The notes below the pieces were generated by a model that was not told where the DNA came from, ran no database searches, and was given only the letters and a program-made list of their open reading frames with translations. 11,536 nt of DNA from an uncultured Bacteroidia bacterium (GTDB lineage Bacteria > Bacteroidota > Bacteroidia > Bacteroidales > UBA932), in the NCBI GenBank assembly GCA_902773305.1, contig CACYEB010000201.1, forward strand, positions 1 through 11,536, given 5' to 3'. A program made the translations under genes and the position numbers. Positions 1 to 6,325 of this stretch are shown here, in pieces; the first letter of the stretch is position 1, and every line of letters begins with the position of its first letter.

Positions 1-722
1 CCGCCGGCCGCATCCTGCTGTTTGGGAATCCAGTTGTTGCACCCCTCCATCCTGGAGTAGTCAAAATAGGTGAAATCGTAGTTGCCGGCCAGCACCGAGT
101 CGGCCTTTGCAAACTGATCGGCCACTGTCCTCTGAATCTGCTCGGCTCCCTCAACACCGGGGAAAACCTCACTGACGGCATAGAACAATATATTGGGATA
201 TACGTCATACCACCAGTCGCGGCCGTAACCGCCGCCAAGCAGTGCAACTTCGGGGCAGGTGTTGTTCATAACTATATTCCAGCCGTTGTCTGTGTTGAAA
301 TAGTTCTGAGCCATCTTGACCCAATTGTAGCCATTCTGGCCGGTCTTGTCTATGCCGTTGAGTCCGGCGCCCAGCAGGGCGTGGAGGATATTCAAACTCT
401 CGTGGAACTCTCCGCCGTTGACATCGGCGCCTTGACGGGCGTCTGCCATAGCGGTATAGAGTCCAAATGTCGTCTGGTCGACATTGCGGCGGGCGTCATC
501 CAGCCAGATCACAGGACCGCAAGGATAGGGATTGTTGAAATCGAAGGCAAATGCGTCAAAGTCCAGCGCTTTCTGATGCCAGTCCAGAAGGACGTAAGGC
601 TCGGGCATTGTTGCCATCATATTAACTCTGGCTATATCCTGCTGAGTCACCGGCGAGCCTCCGTAACGCGGCACACAGGATACGGCGAGAGACAGTATTA
701 TGAATACCAGGTACTTTTTCAT
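1..722 (-). CDS. Lipoprotein of unknown family, C-terminus beyond the left edge
   Basis: I translated this frame by hand: it starts with ATG at 722-720 and stays open for 240 codons to the window edge, with no stop. The N-terminus is a short lipoprotein signal: two Lys, a hydrophobic run and the lipobox-like LAVSC, giving Cys16 as the likely lipidated residue. The mature part is rich in Trp, Tyr, Asn and Gly, with stretches such as FDFNNPYPCGPVIWLDDARR (61-80), GGGYGRDWWYDVYPN (163-177) and MEGCNNWIPKQQDAAGG (225-241). I do not recognise the family. Aromatic and acidic richness plus its place in a GH130/MFS operon would suit a carbohydrate-binding or carbohydrate-cleaving protein, possibly an alpha/alpha-toroid enzyme, but that is only inference. 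The start overlaps the stop of the upstream MFS gene as ATGA (4 bases), so it is the third gene of the operon. Certainty is high that it is a coding region, low for its function. Confidence 0.85.
   Translation of the reverse strand, partial: MKKYLVFIILSLAVSCVPRYGGSPVTQQDIARVNMMATMPEPYVLLDWHQKALDFDAFAFDFNNPYPCGPVIWLDDARRNVDQTTFGLYTAMADARQGADVNGGEFHESLNILHALLGAGLNGIDKTGQNGYNWVKMAQNYFNTDNGWNIVMNNTCPEVALLGGGYGRDWWYDVYPNILFYAVSEVFPGVEGAEQIQRTVADQFAKADSVLAGNYDFTYFDYSRMEGCNNWIPKQQDAAG
719..722 (-). other. ATGA stop/start overlap (translational coupling)
   Basis: On the minus strand the bases ATGA hold both the TGA stop of the MFS gene and the ATG of the lipoprotein gene. Such 4-base overlaps usually mean the two are on one mRNA and the second is translated by ribosomes that finish the first. 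This ties the unknown lipoprotein to the GH130/MFS pair. Confidence 0.8.
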
Positions 723-1963
723 TTTGTATATTTAGTGTCGATGTCCTTTATGATATTCTTGGCCAGGGGCAGTGAAATCAGCTGGATGGCACCCACAATC
801 GGGAGTGCGAAACGCAGCGCAAAATCTTCTGTAAATACGGCCGCAAGCACTATGAAAAGCACCATACCAAAGGCGCGGCCAAAGAACAGGCCTATTTCGT
901 GACTCATTATATAGGTGTATTCGTCGCGGTTTTCAAGTACCTTGACGCAGTCGATGGTTTTCATCATCGTGGGGAAGTATGCCAGATCGTGAATGGGCTG
1001 GAACATAACCTTGCACAGGATGAACACTATCACGCCGACTCCGGAGAAAAGGATTCCGTTGGCAAGTGTGCCGAGAAAGAACACCACCAGTCCAAAGCCG
1101 AAGATCTTCATTCTGTCCTTGGGCTTGGCCACGCGGCCCAGCACATACACCAGCACGGCGGTAAGCGCTCCTGCAACTCCTTGGATTATACCCAGCGAAC
1201 CCTCGCCGCCAATAAATTTCATAATGAGGATGGCGGGGGCGGTCACCAGGAAGCCCTGGACCATACCCTTCAGGGCCGCCAGCGAGAGCATCCGCTTCCA
1301 AAGGGAATGGAACTTCCAATGGAAGAAATTCTTGCTCCCGGGGCTCTTGAACTTCCCCCTGGAGAGGGCGATACAGGCCAGGATGCTTATGACGAAAGCA
1401 CCCACGGTGAGAGTCTGATAACCATTGTTGATCGAGAGTGTGCGGCCAAACAGAACTTTTCCGTCCATACCGGCAATCAACGCTCCGGCCACGATGGGAA
1501 TCACAATATTCCAAAGGGAGAAGAAGAAAGATTCAAATCCGAAGAAATAGTTGCGGTTGTCATCGTCGGTGGCATAGAGGGTCAGCAGATAGCGGTTGGT
1601 CCAGAAGAAACCGGTAGAGAGGCCTATCAGGAAGCCGGTAGAGCATATCATCACCATCCCGACGTTCTTGATGAACATCATCAGCATAAGTGACAGGGCG
1701 GAGATCAGGATACCGAAAGCATACAGACGAGCCGACTTGAACCACTTGAGAAGTACGCCGTTCACGAGGGCGGAAAGCACTACTCCGACATACATACAAA
1801 GCTGGTATATTATAACATAGGTCGGGGTACCCGTATTTCTCATTATATATGCCCCAGCGAAGATCTCTACCAGGGGCAGCACCATCGCGAACAGGAGGTT
1901 CGTGGTGAGCAGCGTCCTGATATTGAGCGGCTGGGAAGCGAAATGTTTGAACTCCTTGAACAT
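719..1963 (-). CDS. MFS-type sugar transporter (inner membrane)
   Basis: This 414-residue, very hydrophobic protein has about twelve predicted membrane segments, roughly at 18-40, 48-72, 78-98, 101-121, 140-165, 183-201, 228-249, 256-276, 286-306, 308-326, 354-378 and 381-402. A basic cytoplasmic loop (about 202-224, rich in Lys, His and Trp) separates the two six-helix halves, as in the major facilitator superfamily. Charged residues near the ends of helices (GRAFG at 362-366, RYLLT at 124-128) fit a substrate/proton carrier. In Bacteroides an MFS gene next to GH130 is a known arrangement, for example in the N-glycan mannoside locus of B. thetaiotaomicron, where the carrier is thought to bring the disaccharide into the cytoplasm for phosphorolysis. 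Here the ATG shares one base with the GH130 stop (TAATG) and the stop overlaps the next start (ATGA), so all three act as one operon. The sugar specificity, probably a manno-oligosaccharide, is inferred from the neighbour. Confidence 0.85.
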   Translation of the reverse strand: MFKEFKHFASQPLNIRTLLTTNLLFAMVLPLVEIFAGAYIMRNTGTPTYVIIYQLCMYVGVVLSALVNGVLLKWFKSARLYAFGILISALSLMLMMFIKNVGMVMICSTGFLIGLSTGFFWTNRYLLTLYATDDDNRNYFFGFESFFFSLWNIVIPIVAGALIAGMDGKVLFGRTLSINNGYQTLTVGAFVISILACIALSRGKFKSPGSKNFFHWKFHSLWKRMLSLAALKGMVQGFLVTAPAILIMKFIGGEGSLGIIQGVAGALTAVLVYVLGRVAKPKDRMKIFGFGLVVFFLGTLANGILFSGVGVIVFILCKVMFQPIHDLAYFPTMMKTIDCVKVLENRDEYTYIMSHEIGLFFGRAFGMVLFIVLAAVFTEDFALRFALPIVGAIQLISLPLAKNIIKDIDTKYTK

Positions 1964-1965
1964 TA
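1961..1965 (-). other. TAATG stop/start overlap (translational coupling)
   Basis: On the minus strand the TAA stop of the GH130 gene and the ATG of the MFS gene share one base. No Shine-Dalgarno-like motif is at normal distance; an AAGGAG lies about 20 bases upstream, too far to serve. Termination-reinitiation is the simplest explanation. Confidence 0.75.
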
Positions 1966-3009
1966 TCGTAGGGTATTGAGTATCTCCTTAACTGACATTT
2001 CCGCACTGCAGATCACCTCGTCGCTGGCTCCGTAGAACATCCGGATGGTGTCTGCATCTTTCATATAATAACCGTTGGTAAAGACCACGTTACCGAAGAA
2101 ACCGGTTTTTTCGTAGTCTGCTATAGGCTCCATAATGGGCTCATCGCTGCGGGCAAGGACCTTGGCAGGGTCGTTCAGATCGAGCAGGAGGGCTCCCAGA
2201 CAATAGCGGTTCTCTTTATTTGCACCGTGGTATATCTCCAGCCACCCTTCCGATGTTTTGATGGGGGCCGCACCTGCTCCTACGCGGGCACTGTCCCACT
2301 TGCCTTCCCTGGTAGTGGCGACGCAGATATGCCTGCCCCAGTGGATGCGGTCGGGCGACTCTGCCACCCATATGTAATTCCCGCCGAGTTCAGGGCTGCT
2401 GGGACGGTGGAAGGCGAAGTATTTGTCGCCGACCTTCTCCTGGAACAGGGCGCAGTCCTTATTGTGGGGAGGGAATATCATACCCTCTCGGCGCAGATTC
2501 TTGAAATCTGATGTCTGGATAAGGCCGACACCCACGGCGACGGGAGAGACTTCTGTGAAAGTCAGAAAAAAACCGTCGTCCATAGTGGCGACACGGCAGT
2601 CTTCAATGCCGAACGATTCCTGGAAACCTTCTCCGAAAATAGGTTTGATGGCAGGATCCTCAGCAAAGTGAACATCATCTTCACTGTAAACGGGGCGCAG
2701 GTAAGAAAGAGTCGTGAGGTAGTCCTGACCCTTATATTTAATTACGCGCGGGTCAGTGGCATCCAACTGGGGGTCGTCTGCCGCGAAACTCAGCACCTCA
2801 ATCTCGCCCTTCTGGTTATACACGGGGAAACTGATTACGCCTTCTTTCTGGACGGGACGCTCCGCCACCCTCAACAAGAGCCAGGTCTTGCCGTCCATAC
2901 GAAAGACGCCGGGATTGAGAAGGCAAGTGATCTCCATACCCGGTATACAGGGCTTCAAATCGGAGGGTCTGAGGATTGGATTGGCCTGATTTCGTTTTGC
3001 TATGTCCAT
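1963..3009 (-). CDS. GH130 family beta-mannoside phosphorylase (or mannosidase)
   Basis: With the start at 3009 this is a 348-residue cytoplasmic enzyme with no signal peptide, a normal GH130 length. GH130 enzymes are five-bladed beta-propellers that split beta-mannosides, mostly by phosphorolysis to mannose 1-phosphate; some are hydrolases. Family signs, numbered from this start: NPIL (10-13), RVAER (47-51), DPRV (86-89), GIEDCRV (135-141) with the presumed catalytic Asp137, NKD (183-185), FHRPS (200-204), GAGAAPI (244-250) and IYHG (259-262). The basic residues Arg47, Arg139, Lys184, His201 and Arg202 suit a phosphate site and favour phosphorolysis. The NPGVF and RVAER context resembles enzymes acting on beta-1,2-mannosides more than those acting on mannosyl-glucose, but linkage cannot be settled by eye. 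Cys138 stands where Pro is common. The frame is open up to an ATG at 3096 (377 residues), but the extra 29 residues look unlike the family and a promoter element lies inside them. Confidence 0.87.
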   Translation of the reverse strand: MDIAKRNQANPILRPSDLKPCIPGMEITCLLNPGVFRMDGKTWLLLRVAERPVQKEGVISFPVYNQKGEIEVLSFAADDPQLDATDPRVIKYKGQDYLTTLSYLRPVYSEDDVHFAEDPAIKPIFGEGFQESFGIEDCRVATMDDGFFLTFTEVSPVAVGVGLIQTSDFKNLRREGMIFPPHNKDCALFQEKVGDKYFAFHRPSSPELGGNYIWVAESPDRIHWGRHICVATTREGKWDSARVGAGAAPIKTSEGWLEIYHGANKENRYCLGALLLDLNDPAKVLARSDEPIMEPIADYEKTGFFGNVVFTNGYYMKDADTIRMFYGASDEVICSAEMSVKEILNTLR

Positions 3010-3139
3010 TTTTGTATTTTTTGATAGTACAAAATTATCGCTGCTCACAGGGGTATGAGTATACAATTTTTTCAATAGGGTGTACATATTCTTCATTGTT
3101 GCAAAAAATGTATAATTTTACAGAAGATTCCTTTGTTTT
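3010..3139. promoter_or_regulatory. Divergent control region between the GH130 operon and the regulator gene
   Basis: This AT-rich 130-base gap must hold the promoters for both directions. Apart from the minus-strand -7 element, the plus strand has TATAATTTTA at 3111-3120, one base off TAnnTTTG in its last eight bases, as a weak candidate for the regulator's own promoter. Short symmetric motifs are present: GTATAC at 3059-3064, TGTACA at 3081-3086, and TGTACAT (3081-3087) facing ATGTATA (3108-3114) with 20 bases between. These are possible operator pieces for the AraC-type output domain but are too short to be sure of. Confidence 0.4.
3030..3037 (-). promoter_or_regulatory. Candidate -7 promoter element for the GH130 operon
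   Basis: On the minus strand this reads TAATTTTG, a full match to the Bacteroidota -7 consensus TAnnTTTG. No clear TTTG-like -33 element sits 19-21 bases upstream, so the promoter may need an activator, which would fit control by the divergent AraC-type regulator. Transcription would begin near 3023, leaving a leader of roughly 14 bases before the ATG at 3009. This supports 3009 over 3096 as the start of GH130. Confidence 0.45.
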
Positions 3140-6100
3140 ATGAAACGCCTCCTCACCCTCATCATATCTTTAGGTACCGCGGTGCTCGCCCTGGCCCAGA
3201 ATTACGGCGTGGACTTCATTACCAGCTCCGACGGGTTGTCCAACAGCTCTGTAATCAAGGTTTTCCAAGACTCCGAAGGGGTAATTTGGCTGGGCACCTG
3301 GGATGGCCTTAATTCCTGGAACAGCCGTAACGTCCGCATCTGGAAGTCCACCGCCGATGATCCCGCAACCCTAAGTTCAAATGTCGTGAGAGACATCGCA
3401 GAAGACAAAGACGGATACCTTTGGGTCTGCACCGACCGCGGCGTAGACCGGCTTGACCGTAAGACGGGCAAATTCACCAGATTCTTCCCCACTGACGCCG
3501 CCTCATTATCCGGAGAGCAACCTTTCTCCATATACGCTGGCGAGGACGGTCTTTTCGTTTTCCTTGACAATAAGGGTATCTGGTGGTTCGAAGACGGCCA
3601 TTTCAAGAAAATATTCGATTCTGACCTCACCTGCCGCAAGTTTCGTATGGACGGCATCGTCCCTGTGGTACTGGACAAGGAGAACAATCTGTATCGAAGC
3701 AATTTCCCCATCGGATACGATGAGTACCTCACGCCCTTTATCGGCTGTAACGACTGCCTTATAGACGGGAATCTGGTGTATTCTGCCACTAATGACGGCC
3801 TGTACTTCAATGGCCAACCCGTGATCAAAGGAATCCCGGTGCTGTCAATATTACAAGGCACCCAGAACATAATATGGGCTGGCACCGATATGCGCGGAGT
3901 GGCCAGAATTAATCCGGAAGGTCCTATGTTCGCTACTGTCAGGGACATCTTCGGCGGCAGTGCCGTAAGGTGCCTGCTGCGGAATTCCCAGGGTCGCCTC
4001 ATGGTTGGCACCAAAGGCTCCGGCATCTACCTCCTGGCCGGTGACGGCACCATAACAAAGCAATTCACGACGGCCGACGGACTTATCTCCAATTCGGTAT
4101 ATTGCTTTGCTTCTGTGGGGGACAGGATATGGATTGGCACCGAAGGGCATGGCCTGAACTACACTGACGCATCCGGCGGCAATATATCCAGACTGAACAT
4201 TCCGGACACCCTTGCCAGCCTCTGCCCGGCATCTGTTTACACAATCCTGCCGATGGGCAGGGATACCCTCTGGATAGGAACCAGCGGTCACGGCTTGATT
4301 CGGACGGTAGTTTCGGGCAACACTATGGTCACTGCCAAACAATACAATGCTTCGCTGCTGGGCAGCAACGTTGTATATTCAGTGATAGACGGCGGTGACG
4401 GCAGTTTGTGGATAGGAACGCGCGGCGGCGGCGTACGGCGGCTCTACATTGACCAAGACAAGGTAGAGGACATTCCCTCCGACTATGACGTACTTTCCCT
4501 TGTAAAAACCACAGACGGCGATATCTGGGCAGGCACGGGCGATGGCCTGGACAGGATATCCGGCGATGGCGCACTGCGGAGATATACCGAAAAGGACGGA
4601 CTGCCCAACAACACCGTCCACGGTGTTATCGCAGATGAGTCCGGCAACTTATGGATAAGCACCAACCGCGGCATCGCCAAACTGGACCCGGCAAGCGGCG
4701 AAACTTTCTCTTATTTCGCCTCAGACGGTCTTCAGGACAACGAATTCTCCGATGGAGCTTATTATTACAGGGATGGGCAGATTTTGTTTGGCGGAATCCG
4801 CGGTCTCACCCGCTTCGATGCCGATTACAGCATCACCGACTCCTTTGTCCCGCACCTTCTTCAACACGGCTTCTTTATCAATAATGAACCTGCTGTGCTG
4901 GACGATTATATGCGCAAAGGCCGCCTGACGATACGTCACGGTAAAGGTTCTTTCAGTTTACTGTTTGTTCCCCTGGACTACCTCAACTCCCAGCGCTGCG
5001 AGCTGCAGTATATGCTGGAGGGTTTCGACCGGGACTGGGTACGGCTTGGAACGTCATCAATCGTGGTCATATCGAACTTGGAGACAGGCAATTATACCTT
5101 GCGCGTAAAGTGCTCTTCAGCCGACAGGAAATGGAGCGGGGAAGAGTATGTACTGCCGATCCGGATCACCCCGCGCTGGTGGGAAAGCCCGGTGGCCTTC
5201 TTACTTTATATTGCACTGCTTGCAGCCATATTCCTTAATATCCGCAAGGTCCGCAAAGACCGGGCCCAGGCACGCAAAGAAAAGGAGATCCACCAGGCAA
5301 AACTCCAGTTCTTCAGTGAAATGGGCTACGATCTGTCCAATGCCCTTACGCTAATGTATGGTCCTAAGGAACAGCTTGAAGGAGGACGCCTGACTTCCGG
5401 TCAGAAACAGTATCTGGAAACCATAGAATCGGGCTCTGACAGGATGCACAGCCTTGTAAAGCAATTTATCGCCGCCTTGGACGATATTCCGGCCCCTGAA
5501 GTCCCCGGGAACCGCGCGGTCTACCGTCAGAACGAGGATTTGGAGCCTGAGCAGATAAAGGCCGACGATTTACTTGTCGTGGACCATGATGCCGGCATCC
5601 GGGCCTTTGTCGGAGCACTTTTGGCTTCCAAATTCAACATTGCAGAGGCCTCCGGCGGAAGCGAGGCCCTTAAAATGATGAAACGCAGGTCCCCTACCCT
5701 GATTATCTGTGCAATGAAACTGGACGATATGGATGGCCTGGAGTTCCTCACAGAGATACGTGCAGAAGAGCGTTTCCGCCACATCCCCATCATTATTATC
5801 TCCGGGAAAGAGTCTATGGACCAGCAAATCTCAGCACTGGAAAAAGGCGCAGATGCCTATCTTCCCAAGCCATTCAATCCAAAGCACCTTATGGCCCTTG
5901 CCGACAGCCTGCTGGGCAGGGGCGAAATAAACCGGGAGTATGGCGGGTCTGCGCGGAGTGCAGTGCAGCAGATTGCCGGGAAAACTGTCAGGAATGAAGA
6001 CAAGGACCTTATCGTAAAGATTTCCGATATCATCATCAAGAATATCGAGAACGAGGCGCTGACCCCCGAGATGGTTGCCGCCGAGGCCGCCTTAAGCAAA

Positions 6101-6325
6101 ATGCAGTTATATCGCAAGTTGCGCTCGGCAGTCGGTATGACGCCCACGGAGTTTATCCGCAGCATCCGGCTGGAAAACGCGCGGAAGCTACTAAGGACCT
6201 CCCACAAGACGGCACTTGAGATCATGTATGCCTGCGGCTTCGCCAACAAGACTTATTTTTACAGGGAATTCAAGAAAAAATACGGCGTGACTCCCAAGCA
6301 GTACCGGAACAGCGAACAGAAATAA
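3140..6325 (+). CDS. Degenerate hybrid two-component regulator with AraC output (kinase domain missing)
   Basis: A 1061-residue membrane-spanning regulator. Residues 1-20 are a signal peptide (ending ALA/Q). Residues 25-560 hold two-component-regulator propeller repeats, seen as recurring (D/G)G-x-(I/L)W-(I/A/L)GT strands, e.g. GVIWLGT, NIIWAGT, DRIWIGT, DTLWIGT, GSLWIGT and NLWIST. A Y_Y_Y domain follows (about 598-676), then one membrane helix (683-701). The cytoplasmic part starts with a HisKA-like helical pair (711-782), then a short linker, a receiver-like domain (809-925) and an AraC-type double helix-turn-helix (about 960-1056). Usual hybrid sensors of this type in Bacteroides bind a glycan breakdown product in the periplasm and activate a nearby operon. 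Here the HisKA motif reads EMGYDLSNALTLM, with Tyr730 where the phospho-His belongs. No HATPase domain with N, G1 or G2 boxes exists. The receiver reads LIICAMKLDDMDG, with Ala858 where the phospho-Asp belongs; Asp815, Ser888 and Lys910 remain. The frame is unbroken and the DNA-binding part looks sound. Divergent placement points to the GH130 operon as its target. Confidence 0.93.
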   Translation: MKRLLTLIISLGTAVLALAQNYGVDFITSSDGLSNSSVIKVFQDSEGVIWLGTWDGLNSWNSRNVRIWKSTADDPATLSSNVVRDIAEDKDGYLWVCTDRGVDRLDRKTGKFTRFFPTDAASLSGEQPFSIYAGEDGLFVFLDNKGIWWFEDGHFKKIFDSDLTCRKFRMDGIVPVVLDKENNLYRSNFPIGYDEYLTPFIGCNDCLIDGNLVYSATNDGLYFNGQPVIKGIPVLSILQGTQNIIWAGTDMRGVARINPEGPMFATVRDIFGGSAVRCLLRNSQGRLMVGTKGSGIYLLAGDGTITKQFTTADGLISNSVYCFASVGDRIWIGTEGHGLNYTDASGGNISRLNIPDTLASLCPASVYTILPMGRDTLWIGTSGHGLIRTVVSGNTMVTAKQYNASLLGSNVVYSVIDGGDGSLWIGTRGGGVRRLYIDQDKVEDIPSDYDVLSLVKTTDGDIWAGTGDGLDRISGDGALRRYTEKDGLPNNTVHGVIADESGNLWISTNRGIAKLDPASGETFSYFASDGLQDNEFSDGAYYYRDGQILFGGIRGLTRFDADYSITDSFVPHLLQHGFFINNEPAVLDDYMRKGRLTIRHGKGSFSLLFVPLDYLNSQRCELQYMLEGFDRDWVRLGTSSIVVISNLETGNYTLRVKCSSADRKWSGEEYVLPIRITPRWWESPVAFLLYIALLAAIFLNIRKVRKDRAQARKEKEIHQAKLQFFSEMGYDLSNALTLMYGPKEQLEGGRLTSGQKQYLETIESGSDRMHSLVKQFIAALDDIPAPEVPGNRAVYRQNEDLEPEQIKADDLLVVDHDAGIRAFVGALLASKFNIAEASGGSEALKMMKRRSPTLIICAMKLDDMDGLEFLTEIRAEERFRHIPIIIISGKESMDQQISALEKGADAYLPKPFNPKHLMALADSLLGRGEINREYGGSARSAVQQIAGKTVRNEDKDLIVKISDIIIKNIENEALTPEMVAAEAALSKMQLYRKLRSAVGMTPTEFIRSIRLENARKLLRTSHKTALEIMYACGFANKTYFYREFKKKYGVTPKQYRNSEQK

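Follow-up and report, generated by a model that had tools for sequence, protein, structure and literature searches.

A Bacteroidales regulator derived from a hybrid two-component system has lost its whole phosphorelay in frame and is probably a transmembrane one-component regulator

The stretch of DNA analyzed here (the window, 11,536 nucleotides of an uncultured Bacteroidia bacterium) encodes a hybrid two-component (HTCS-type) regulator whose whole phosphorelay has been dismantled in frame, as a preliminary description of the window had claimed. The HATPase domain, the phospho-His, and the phospho-Asp are lost, part of this loss is shared by inheritance with an ortholog from another genus, and the protein remains under purifying selection. 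Its periplasmic sensor, its AraC-type DNA-binding domain, and most of a receiver-DNA-binding domain contact motif are retained, and an operator-like direct repeat lies upstream of the gene. The protein is probably a transmembrane one-component regulator that evolved from an HTCS through loss of the phosphorelay and would signal without phosphate. This is the best reading of the evidence, which upholds the similar proposal of the preliminary description.

The features of the regulator gene and its surroundings are collected in Table 1. The sensor consists of six Reg_prop stretches and a Y_Y_Y domain (Pfam) and matches the solved HTCS sensors 4a2l and 3v9f (phmmer), and thus the periplasmic part expected of an HTCS is present. 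A HisKA domain with its phospho-His followed by HATPase_c is not found, since the site is occupied by Tyr730 and a Pfam search of the protein gave no HATPase_c match at E ≤ 1. The receiver and the AraC DNA-binding domain are both there, with Ala858 in place of the phospho-Asp. The HMMER-type domain check suggested earlier thus recovers Response_reg clearly (80.4 bits), HisKA weakly at 24.9 bits, just under the cut-off of 26.9, and HATPase_c not at all. Judged by these domains and residues, the protein is HTCS-derived and is not a working HTCS. It carries the sensor and DNA-binding domain (Pfam) and a putative transmembrane helix recognized by eye in one chain, as in a transmembrane one-component regulator. 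Its HisKA relative is, by sequence alone, a pseudo-histidine kinase, and the receiver fold seen in the model and by Foldseek, combined with Ala858 and His816, is that of a pseudo-receiver.

Table 1. Coordinates of the regulator, its candidate operator, and the neighboring genes in the window.
Feature	Positions	Strand	Basis
HATPase-less hybrid two-component (HTCS-type) regulator, 1061 aa	3140..6325	+	Open frame; Pfam; same-architecture ortholog L061
Periplasmic sensor, Reg_prop propeller and Y_Y_Y, residues 20-676	3197..5167	+	Pfam; phmmer to 4a2l/3v9f
Probable transmembrane helix, approximately residues 685-701	5192..5242	+	Hydrophobic run in translation, by eye
Degenerate HisKA/DHp hairpin, residues 720-776	5297..5467	+	Pfam HisKA below cut-off; two modeled helices
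Tyr730 replacing phospho-His	5327..5329	+	Translation; alignment column
Linker, residues 778-808, at the position of the orthologs' HATPase	5471..5563	+	Ortholog comparison; junction common to L061
Pseudo-receiver (REC) domain, residues 811-926	5570..5917	+	Response_reg 80.4 bits; REC fold in model, Foldseek
His816 replacing second acidic-pocket Asp	5585..5587	+	Alignment column
Ala858 replacing phospho-Asp	5711..5713	+	Alignment column
RHIP (880-883), receiver half of published REC-DBD inhibitory motif S/CHIP-DK	5777..5788	+	Motif of PMC11253607
Asp954, DBD half of contact motif	5999..6001	+	39-residue spacing to Lys, cf. D1344/K1383 (PMC11253607)
Lys993, DBD half of contact motif, recognition helix	6116..6118	+	Motif comparison
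AraC-type DNA-binding domain, residues 960-1061	6017..6322	+	HTH_18 82.3 bits (Pfam)
Operator-like half-site 1, GTATACAATTTTTTCA	3059..3074	+	21-bp direct repeat, in many orthologous intergenic regions
Operator-like half-site 2, GTGTACATATTCTTCA	3080..3095	+	21 bp from half-site 1, candidate
GH130 mannoside phosphorylase, divergent neighbor	1963..3009	-	Pfam PF04041; NCBIfam NF050092 under cut-off
MFS transporter, same cluster	719..1963	-	Pfam MFS_1

Residue columns were counted after the window had been aligned with 79 homologous loci. The phospho-His column holds His in 78 of the 79, the lone exception being the Tyr of locus L061, and the phospho-Asp column holds Asp in all 77 homologs covered, with Ala unique to the window; both substitutions, Tyr730 (5327-5329) and Ala858 (5711-5713), are therefore confirmed. 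The second acidic residue is Asp in 76 of 76 covered homologs and His816 is found in the window only, while the receiver site retains Asp815, Ser888, and Lys910. The HATPase stretch is absent from the window and L061 only; L067 ends at a contig end, and the frame break of L091 lies behind this stretch. HisKA and the receiver are separated by 34 residues (777-810) in both proteins, versus 196-224 in 51 orthologs, a count that sets aside L160 and L010, which are cut at contig ends. Thus, the missing HATPase domain reported earlier stands, but the link is longer than the 25 or so residues given for it. Loss of the HE-R-P signature, likewise attributed to this protein, does not belong to its lineage, as the R and P are already absent in eight of eight kinase-intact orthologs in alignment A1, all of which read HEFSNSL at the His site. 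Since the window protein has no ATP-binding domain, no phospho-His, and no phospho-Asp, its independence of phosphorylation appears close to forced.

The ortholog L061 comes from the uncultured Bacteroidales RUG387, of another genus of the family, and is 1064 residues long and 60% identical to the window protein. Its deletion junction and its Tyr are identical to those of the window protein, and its gene adjoins GH130 and MFS genes head-to-head in the synteny seen in the window. Its receiver keeps the phospho-Asp and Lys, but Gly occupies the position of the first acidic residue. All of the relay losses are real, though they differ in age and are only partly common to orthologs: the HATPase deletion and the His to Tyr change are shared with L061, whereas Asp to Ala is confined to the window. 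The simplest history would be a single loss in the common ancestor of the two genes, in which an in-frame deletion removed the HATPase and Tyr replaced the phospho-His, after which the acidic and phospho-Asp sites of the receiver would have eroded separately in each line. A false deletion in assembly or a foreign contig in the bin might be suspected because the source is a MAG of 256 contigs (69.9% complete) and the window makes up the whole of contig C201. However, the identical junction occurs in the independent assembly of RUG387, and the contig's MutS2 shares 62-85% identity with the proteins of the 25 further genomes in the window's genus (at least 73% in 13 of them) versus 58-60% for six genomes of RUG387's genus, leaving an artifact of either kind with a negligible likelihood.

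In a tree of the sensor, built from 28 of 55 distinct orthologs hand-picked among the nearer ones, with a midpoint root that serves the drawing alone, a branch with an SH-aLRT support of 100 sets apart the window, L160, and L061, and the kinase-intact L062, L063, L011, and L010 adjoin this group (98). Within the window's genus, four of the 25 other genomes have a match at E ≤ 1e-60. Two of these (L011 in G010 and L012 in G007) are full length and kinase-intact, and two (L009 in G015 and L010 in G025) are cut at contig ends, their visible parts showing the His and the HATPase stretch. Close relatives with an intact HATPase domain and His/Asp pair, which the preliminary description had regarded as speaking against its reading, therefore do exist in the literal sense, but they are 41-44% identical to the window protein. 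Their presence indicates that the loss is derived and does not show that the gene has died.

The clade has two complete members among the loci recovered, the window protein and L061, and each comes from a MAG. A third candidate, L160 (G390), was rejected because its frame enters unrelated sequence after the transmembrane helix near a contig edge. The L160 sensor is 61% identical to that of the window, but homology stops before HisKA, so the locus says nothing about the HATPase. The unrelated tail (L160:128-277, G390 contig 106), which may resemble the C-terminus of QueF, reflects either chimeric joining or a genuine rearrangement. Searches of overlapping genome draws, which keep the best two candidates per genome (five in the 151-genome draw) and bound close relatives only, gave the following. 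Among 299 genomes of the family at E ≤ 1e-130, seven had a match, namely the window and six with frames that are of kinase length or cut by contig ends. Eight of 151 genomes of RUG387's genus matched at 1e-100, these being RUG387, G390, and six genomes whose frames measure 1293-1377 aa. The family at 1e-150 (398 genomes) yielded the window, G480 (the same as RUG387), and G493, where the frame is 1244 aa long, and RUG387's genus at 1e-180 (400 genomes) yielded G480, G601, whose match has the same coordinates and score as that of G390, and G708 with a 1278-aa frame. Only the window itself was recovered among 393 genomes of the order at 1e-180. A scan of genome contigs with the window protein as query found no match, and the same kind of scan with the ortholog alignment found L061 (best 80 of 545). 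A single-segment criterion applied to 59 genomes, by which only the window match spanned the query, was rejected as uninformative because in a control with the part from the HATPase to the linker excised, none of 52 cut orthologs spanned it either. With domain models, eight of 141 receiver-HTH frames (duplicates included) lack a HATPase match, comprising the window twice, L061 four times, and the split frames L091 and L116; this count covers the loci in hand and is no census of HTCSs. The last two loci (L091:4851-8974, from a Bacteroides nordii record, and L116:1571-5594) are HTCS homologs split across two frames. The window's own assembly also has another Reg_prop protein (L013, G000:C223:3769-6378), which is cut off by a contig end.

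Over the 1061 codons compared between the window and L061, pN is 0.267 and pS 0.713, and pN is compared here with pS in place of an exact dN/dS figure, which would be unreliable since synonymous sites are saturated. The respective values are 0.285 and 0.699 for the sensor, 0.181 and 0.766 for HisKA, 0.307 and 0.743 for the linker, 0.275 and 0.732 for REC, and 0.155 and 0.659 for HTH. Every domain is therefore under purifying selection, which bears out the earlier view that selection keeps the frame and the protein. A decaying gene that is still in frame by chance would account for the loss of catalytic residues one by one and for the rarity of the form in the searches made. Nevertheless, it is very improbable given that no frameshift or stop has arisen although synonymous sites are saturated, that pN is far below pS in all domains tested, and that the DNA-binding domain is more conserved than in matched controls.

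Near-invariant residues, defined as those present in at least 95% of 52 orthologs without the loss, show where the protein has degraded. The sensor (residues 20-680) keeps 71 of 73 in the window and 72 of 73 in L061, and the HTH keeps 12 of 13 and 13 of 13, respectively. HisKA (715-780) keeps 9 of 17 in both proteins, and REC keeps 11 of 16 in the window and 12 of 16 in L061. The corresponding leave-one-out minima among the 51-52 orthologs without the loss are 0.883 for the sensor, 0.786 for HTH, 0.824 for HisKA, and 0.875 for REC. By this measure, degradation is concentrated in HisKA and the receiver, and the sensor and AraC domain are nearly intact, as had been stated earlier. The sensor is also not evolving faster than in kinase-intact pairs: the GH130 enzymes of the window and L061 are 0.87 identical and their sensors 0.58, compared to a mean sensor identity of 0.52 (range 0.33-0.78) in 76 kinase-intact pairs of like GH130 identity (bin 0.84-0.88). 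Continued function of the regulator is well supported, and a putative continued control by a ligand draws support from the conserved sensor.

Constraint within the cytoplasmic part was compared with 202 kinase-intact pairs of sensor identity 0.52-0.64, which are not independent, over stretches that are short (5-33 residues) except for the HTH. Three elements are more alike between the window and L061 than in all but 1% of the matched pairs, namely receiver alpha1 (0.82 vs. a mean of 0.50), the new linker (0.52 vs. 0.31), and the HTH (0.78 vs. 0.68). The REC-HTH linker (0.73 vs. 0.54) and DHp alpha2 (0.79 vs. 0.68) are equaled by 5% and 6% of pairs, respectively. Identity is lower than the mean in DHp alpha1 (0.61 vs. 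0.89), receiver beta4 (0.40 vs. 0.90), receiver alpha4 (0.56 vs. 0.77), and alpha2 (0.30 vs. 0.43), and nothing unusual relative to the matched pairs was seen in receiver beta1, beta3-alpha3, or beta5-alpha5. Receiver alpha1 docks on DHp, and the four changes that rewire the HK853-RR468 interface reportedly lie in this helix. Because alpha1 and DHp alpha2 are more alike and DHp alpha1 and beta4 less alike, we infer that phosphate chemistry was abandoned while the probable docking faces persisted. The rewiring of the HK853-RR468 interface through four receiver changes is given in the titles of entries 4ja2 and 4jav.

An inhibitory contact between receiver and DNA-binding domain, with the motif S/CHIP-DK, has been described from predicted structures and tested by substitutions, which gave phosphorylation-independent DNA binding (PMC11253607). 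The window protein and L061 read RHIP-DK, matching five of the six positions with R in place of the first S/C, and the DxY of beta5 is present in both. Among 51 kinase-intact orthologs, H, D, and K of the motif are each conserved in 49, I in 50, and P in all 51, and the first position (residue 880) is R in 25, K in nine, G in six, and S in six. Since that position is mostly R and rarely S, the clamp between receiver and DNA-binding domain may be weak across the whole ortholog group, and kinase-intact members may also have altered control of DNA binding.

A model of the cytoplasmic part, built with 40 sequences, has a mean pLDDT of 80.8 and a pTM of 0.41, the latter making its domain arrangement uninterpretable, and so the arrangement was not used. 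The first helix runs from model position 2 to 58, interrupted at 50, and the second from 64 to 92; the receiver fold comes next and then the AraC part, which is helical. Receivers and response regulators make up most of the top 50 matches listed by Foldseek. The pLDDT drops below 50 at positions 97-117 (residues 786-806), which connect DHp to the receiver, and this linker is predicted to be disordered. Tight mechanical coupling is therefore less obvious, and the earlier picture of the receiver as a rigid spacer does not hold up well, as the disordered linker, the contact motif present at five of six positions, and the conserved alpha1 favor docking and a clamp over a rigid rod. The predicted disorder, the R at the first motif position, and the DNA binding of motif substitutions without phosphorylation (PMC11253607) would also suit a constitutive dimer, in which a tethered pair of DNA-binding domains always sits on the 21-bp repeat as a fixed activator or repressor while the sensor is idle. 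However, an idle sensor should drift, whereas this one retains nearly all near-invariant residues in both proteins with pN far below pS, and five of the motif residues (H, I, P, D, and K) are retained. The constitutive dimer is accordingly rated unlikely, and a ligand-controlled one-component regulator is preferred.

Phosphate or another input could also arrive in trans, from a different kinase or through a heterodimer with a full HTCS. L061 retains the phospho-Asp and the receiver Lys, so it may receive phosphate from elsewhere, and its genome has 13 HATPase_c matches, of which 12 exceed the cut-off and some lie in long frames. In contrast, neither the phospho-Asp nor one of the acidic-pocket Asp residues is present in the window protein, and the other member of the acidic pair is missing from L061. 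A receiver-AraC search of the window's own assembly (E ≤ 1e-20; 69.9% complete) returned the window gene as its sole match. The same assembly has five HATPase_c matches, three in complete frames read as non-HTCS (C184, C114, and C68) and two truncated at contig ends and not classifiable (C28 and C193). Signaling in trans is thus considered quite improbable.

The probable start of the divergent GH130 gene, by comparison with homologs, is MDIAKR at 3009, whereas the listed frame began at 3096; the start at 3009 opens a regulatory region of 130 bp (3010-3139) that holds the operator-like repeat. A consensus-free self-match of 16 bases was computed for 44 of 55 orthologous intergenic regions, a start-codon and length rule having excluded the other 11, and its mean best value is 10.32 of 16 at lag 21 compared to 7.93-9.0 at the 15 other lags between 17 and 32. 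Among the intergenic regions listed, the repeat is weak or absent in at least those of L077, L080, and L134. A consensus-based score (21.23 at lag 21; 17.4-19.7 at other lags; shuffles with a mean of 16.24 and a best of 100 of 16.66) was set aside as circular, the consensus having been drawn from these same sequences. Direct repeats have been reported for HTCS regulons, in one case as a pair of 12-bp sites separated by 9 bp and thus with a period of 21 bp (PMC3878776).

The cluster was probably moved between genera along with the regulator, since the cluster genes are nearer to those of L160, from RUG387's genus, while MutS2 is nearer to the window's own genus. Identities to the L160 locus are 90.5% for GH130, 88.5% for MFS, and 90% for the third gene, versus 87 and 81%, 71 and 74%, and 77 and 73% to G010 and G007 of the window's genus, respectively. 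MutS2 shows the opposite, with 83 and 81% to G010 and G007 and 60% to the L160 genome. Identities to L061 (88% for GH130, 67% for MFS, and 81% for the third gene) fit a transfer less simply.

In the proposed mechanism, the sensor would still read a periplasmic oligosaccharide, possibly a manno-oligosaccharide, and the AraC domain would still bind the 21-bp direct repeat between the regulator and the GH130 gene. The sensor, as a putative dimer, would move the DHp hairpin without phosphate, the docking of DHp on receiver alpha1 would shift, and this shift would open or close the inhibitory contact of the receiver with the DNA-binding domain. A specific form of this mechanism is put forward tentatively, in which a retuned contact between DHp alpha2 and receiver alpha1, together with the new conserved linker, would release the pseudo-receiver from the DNA-binding domain or bring the two into contact, with neither ATP nor phosphate.

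Close precedents exist for parts of this design. The Caulobacter pseudokinase DivL has Tyr at the phospho-His site, as does the window protein, but unlike the window protein it retains an ATPase-like domain and has no DNA-binding domain. The Bacteroides HTCSs BT4663 and BT4124 share with the window protein the domain order of sensor, transmembrane segment, HisKA, receiver, and AraC DNA-binding domain, as well as the HIP-DK residues between receiver and DNA-binding domain and direct-repeat motifs (PMC3878776), whereas the window protein lacks their HATPase, phospho-His, and phospho-Asp. BT4236 is an HTCS without the phospho-His, having Gln848 at the site, and the authors suggest a phosphorylation-independent mechanism for it (PMC11253607). 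Its motif is CSIP-EK, and the excerpted description on which this comparison draws does not mention for BT4236 the HATPase and receiver Asp losses seen here (PMC11253607). Transmembrane transcription regulators (TTRs) also place a membrane sensor and a DNA-binding domain in one chain, including the "hybrid TTRs" and the gonococcal Rsp, which fuses the PilS receptor to the PilR DNA-binding domain (PMC10269533); the window protein differs in keeping a DHp hairpin and a pseudo-receiver between the two. Pseudo-receivers and other Asp-less receivers likewise have the receiver fold without phosphorylation residues (PMC12632262; PMC4395418), and 2.0% of PF00072 domains are reported to lack the Asp and 0.9% of HisKA domains the His (PMC12632262), whereas the window chain has lost His, Asp, and the ATPase domain together. 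No HTCS without a HATPase domain was found in titles and abstract starts among the matches listed, which leave subscription journals mostly uncovered. Given BT4236, DivL, the pseudo-receivers, and the transmembrane regulators, the window protein is best described, by analogy, as a variant of known systems with a putative mechanism.

The switching of bacterial pseudo-receivers was termed a mystery in 2025 (PMC12632262), and a single residue of BT4236 has prompted the suggestion that HTCSs can signal without phosphorylation (PMC11253607). Two kinase-less orthologs now stand beside kinase-intact ones that face the same cluster and often the same 21-bp repeat, providing a natural comparison of like sensors and operators with and without the relay.

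A minor observation concerns the kinase-intact loci of the window's genus, where L009, L010, and L011 read NTSVGI at what is presumably the G1 box of the HATPase, several others reading NTGVGI or NTGIGV. A weakening of the kinase in the line of these three loci is possible.
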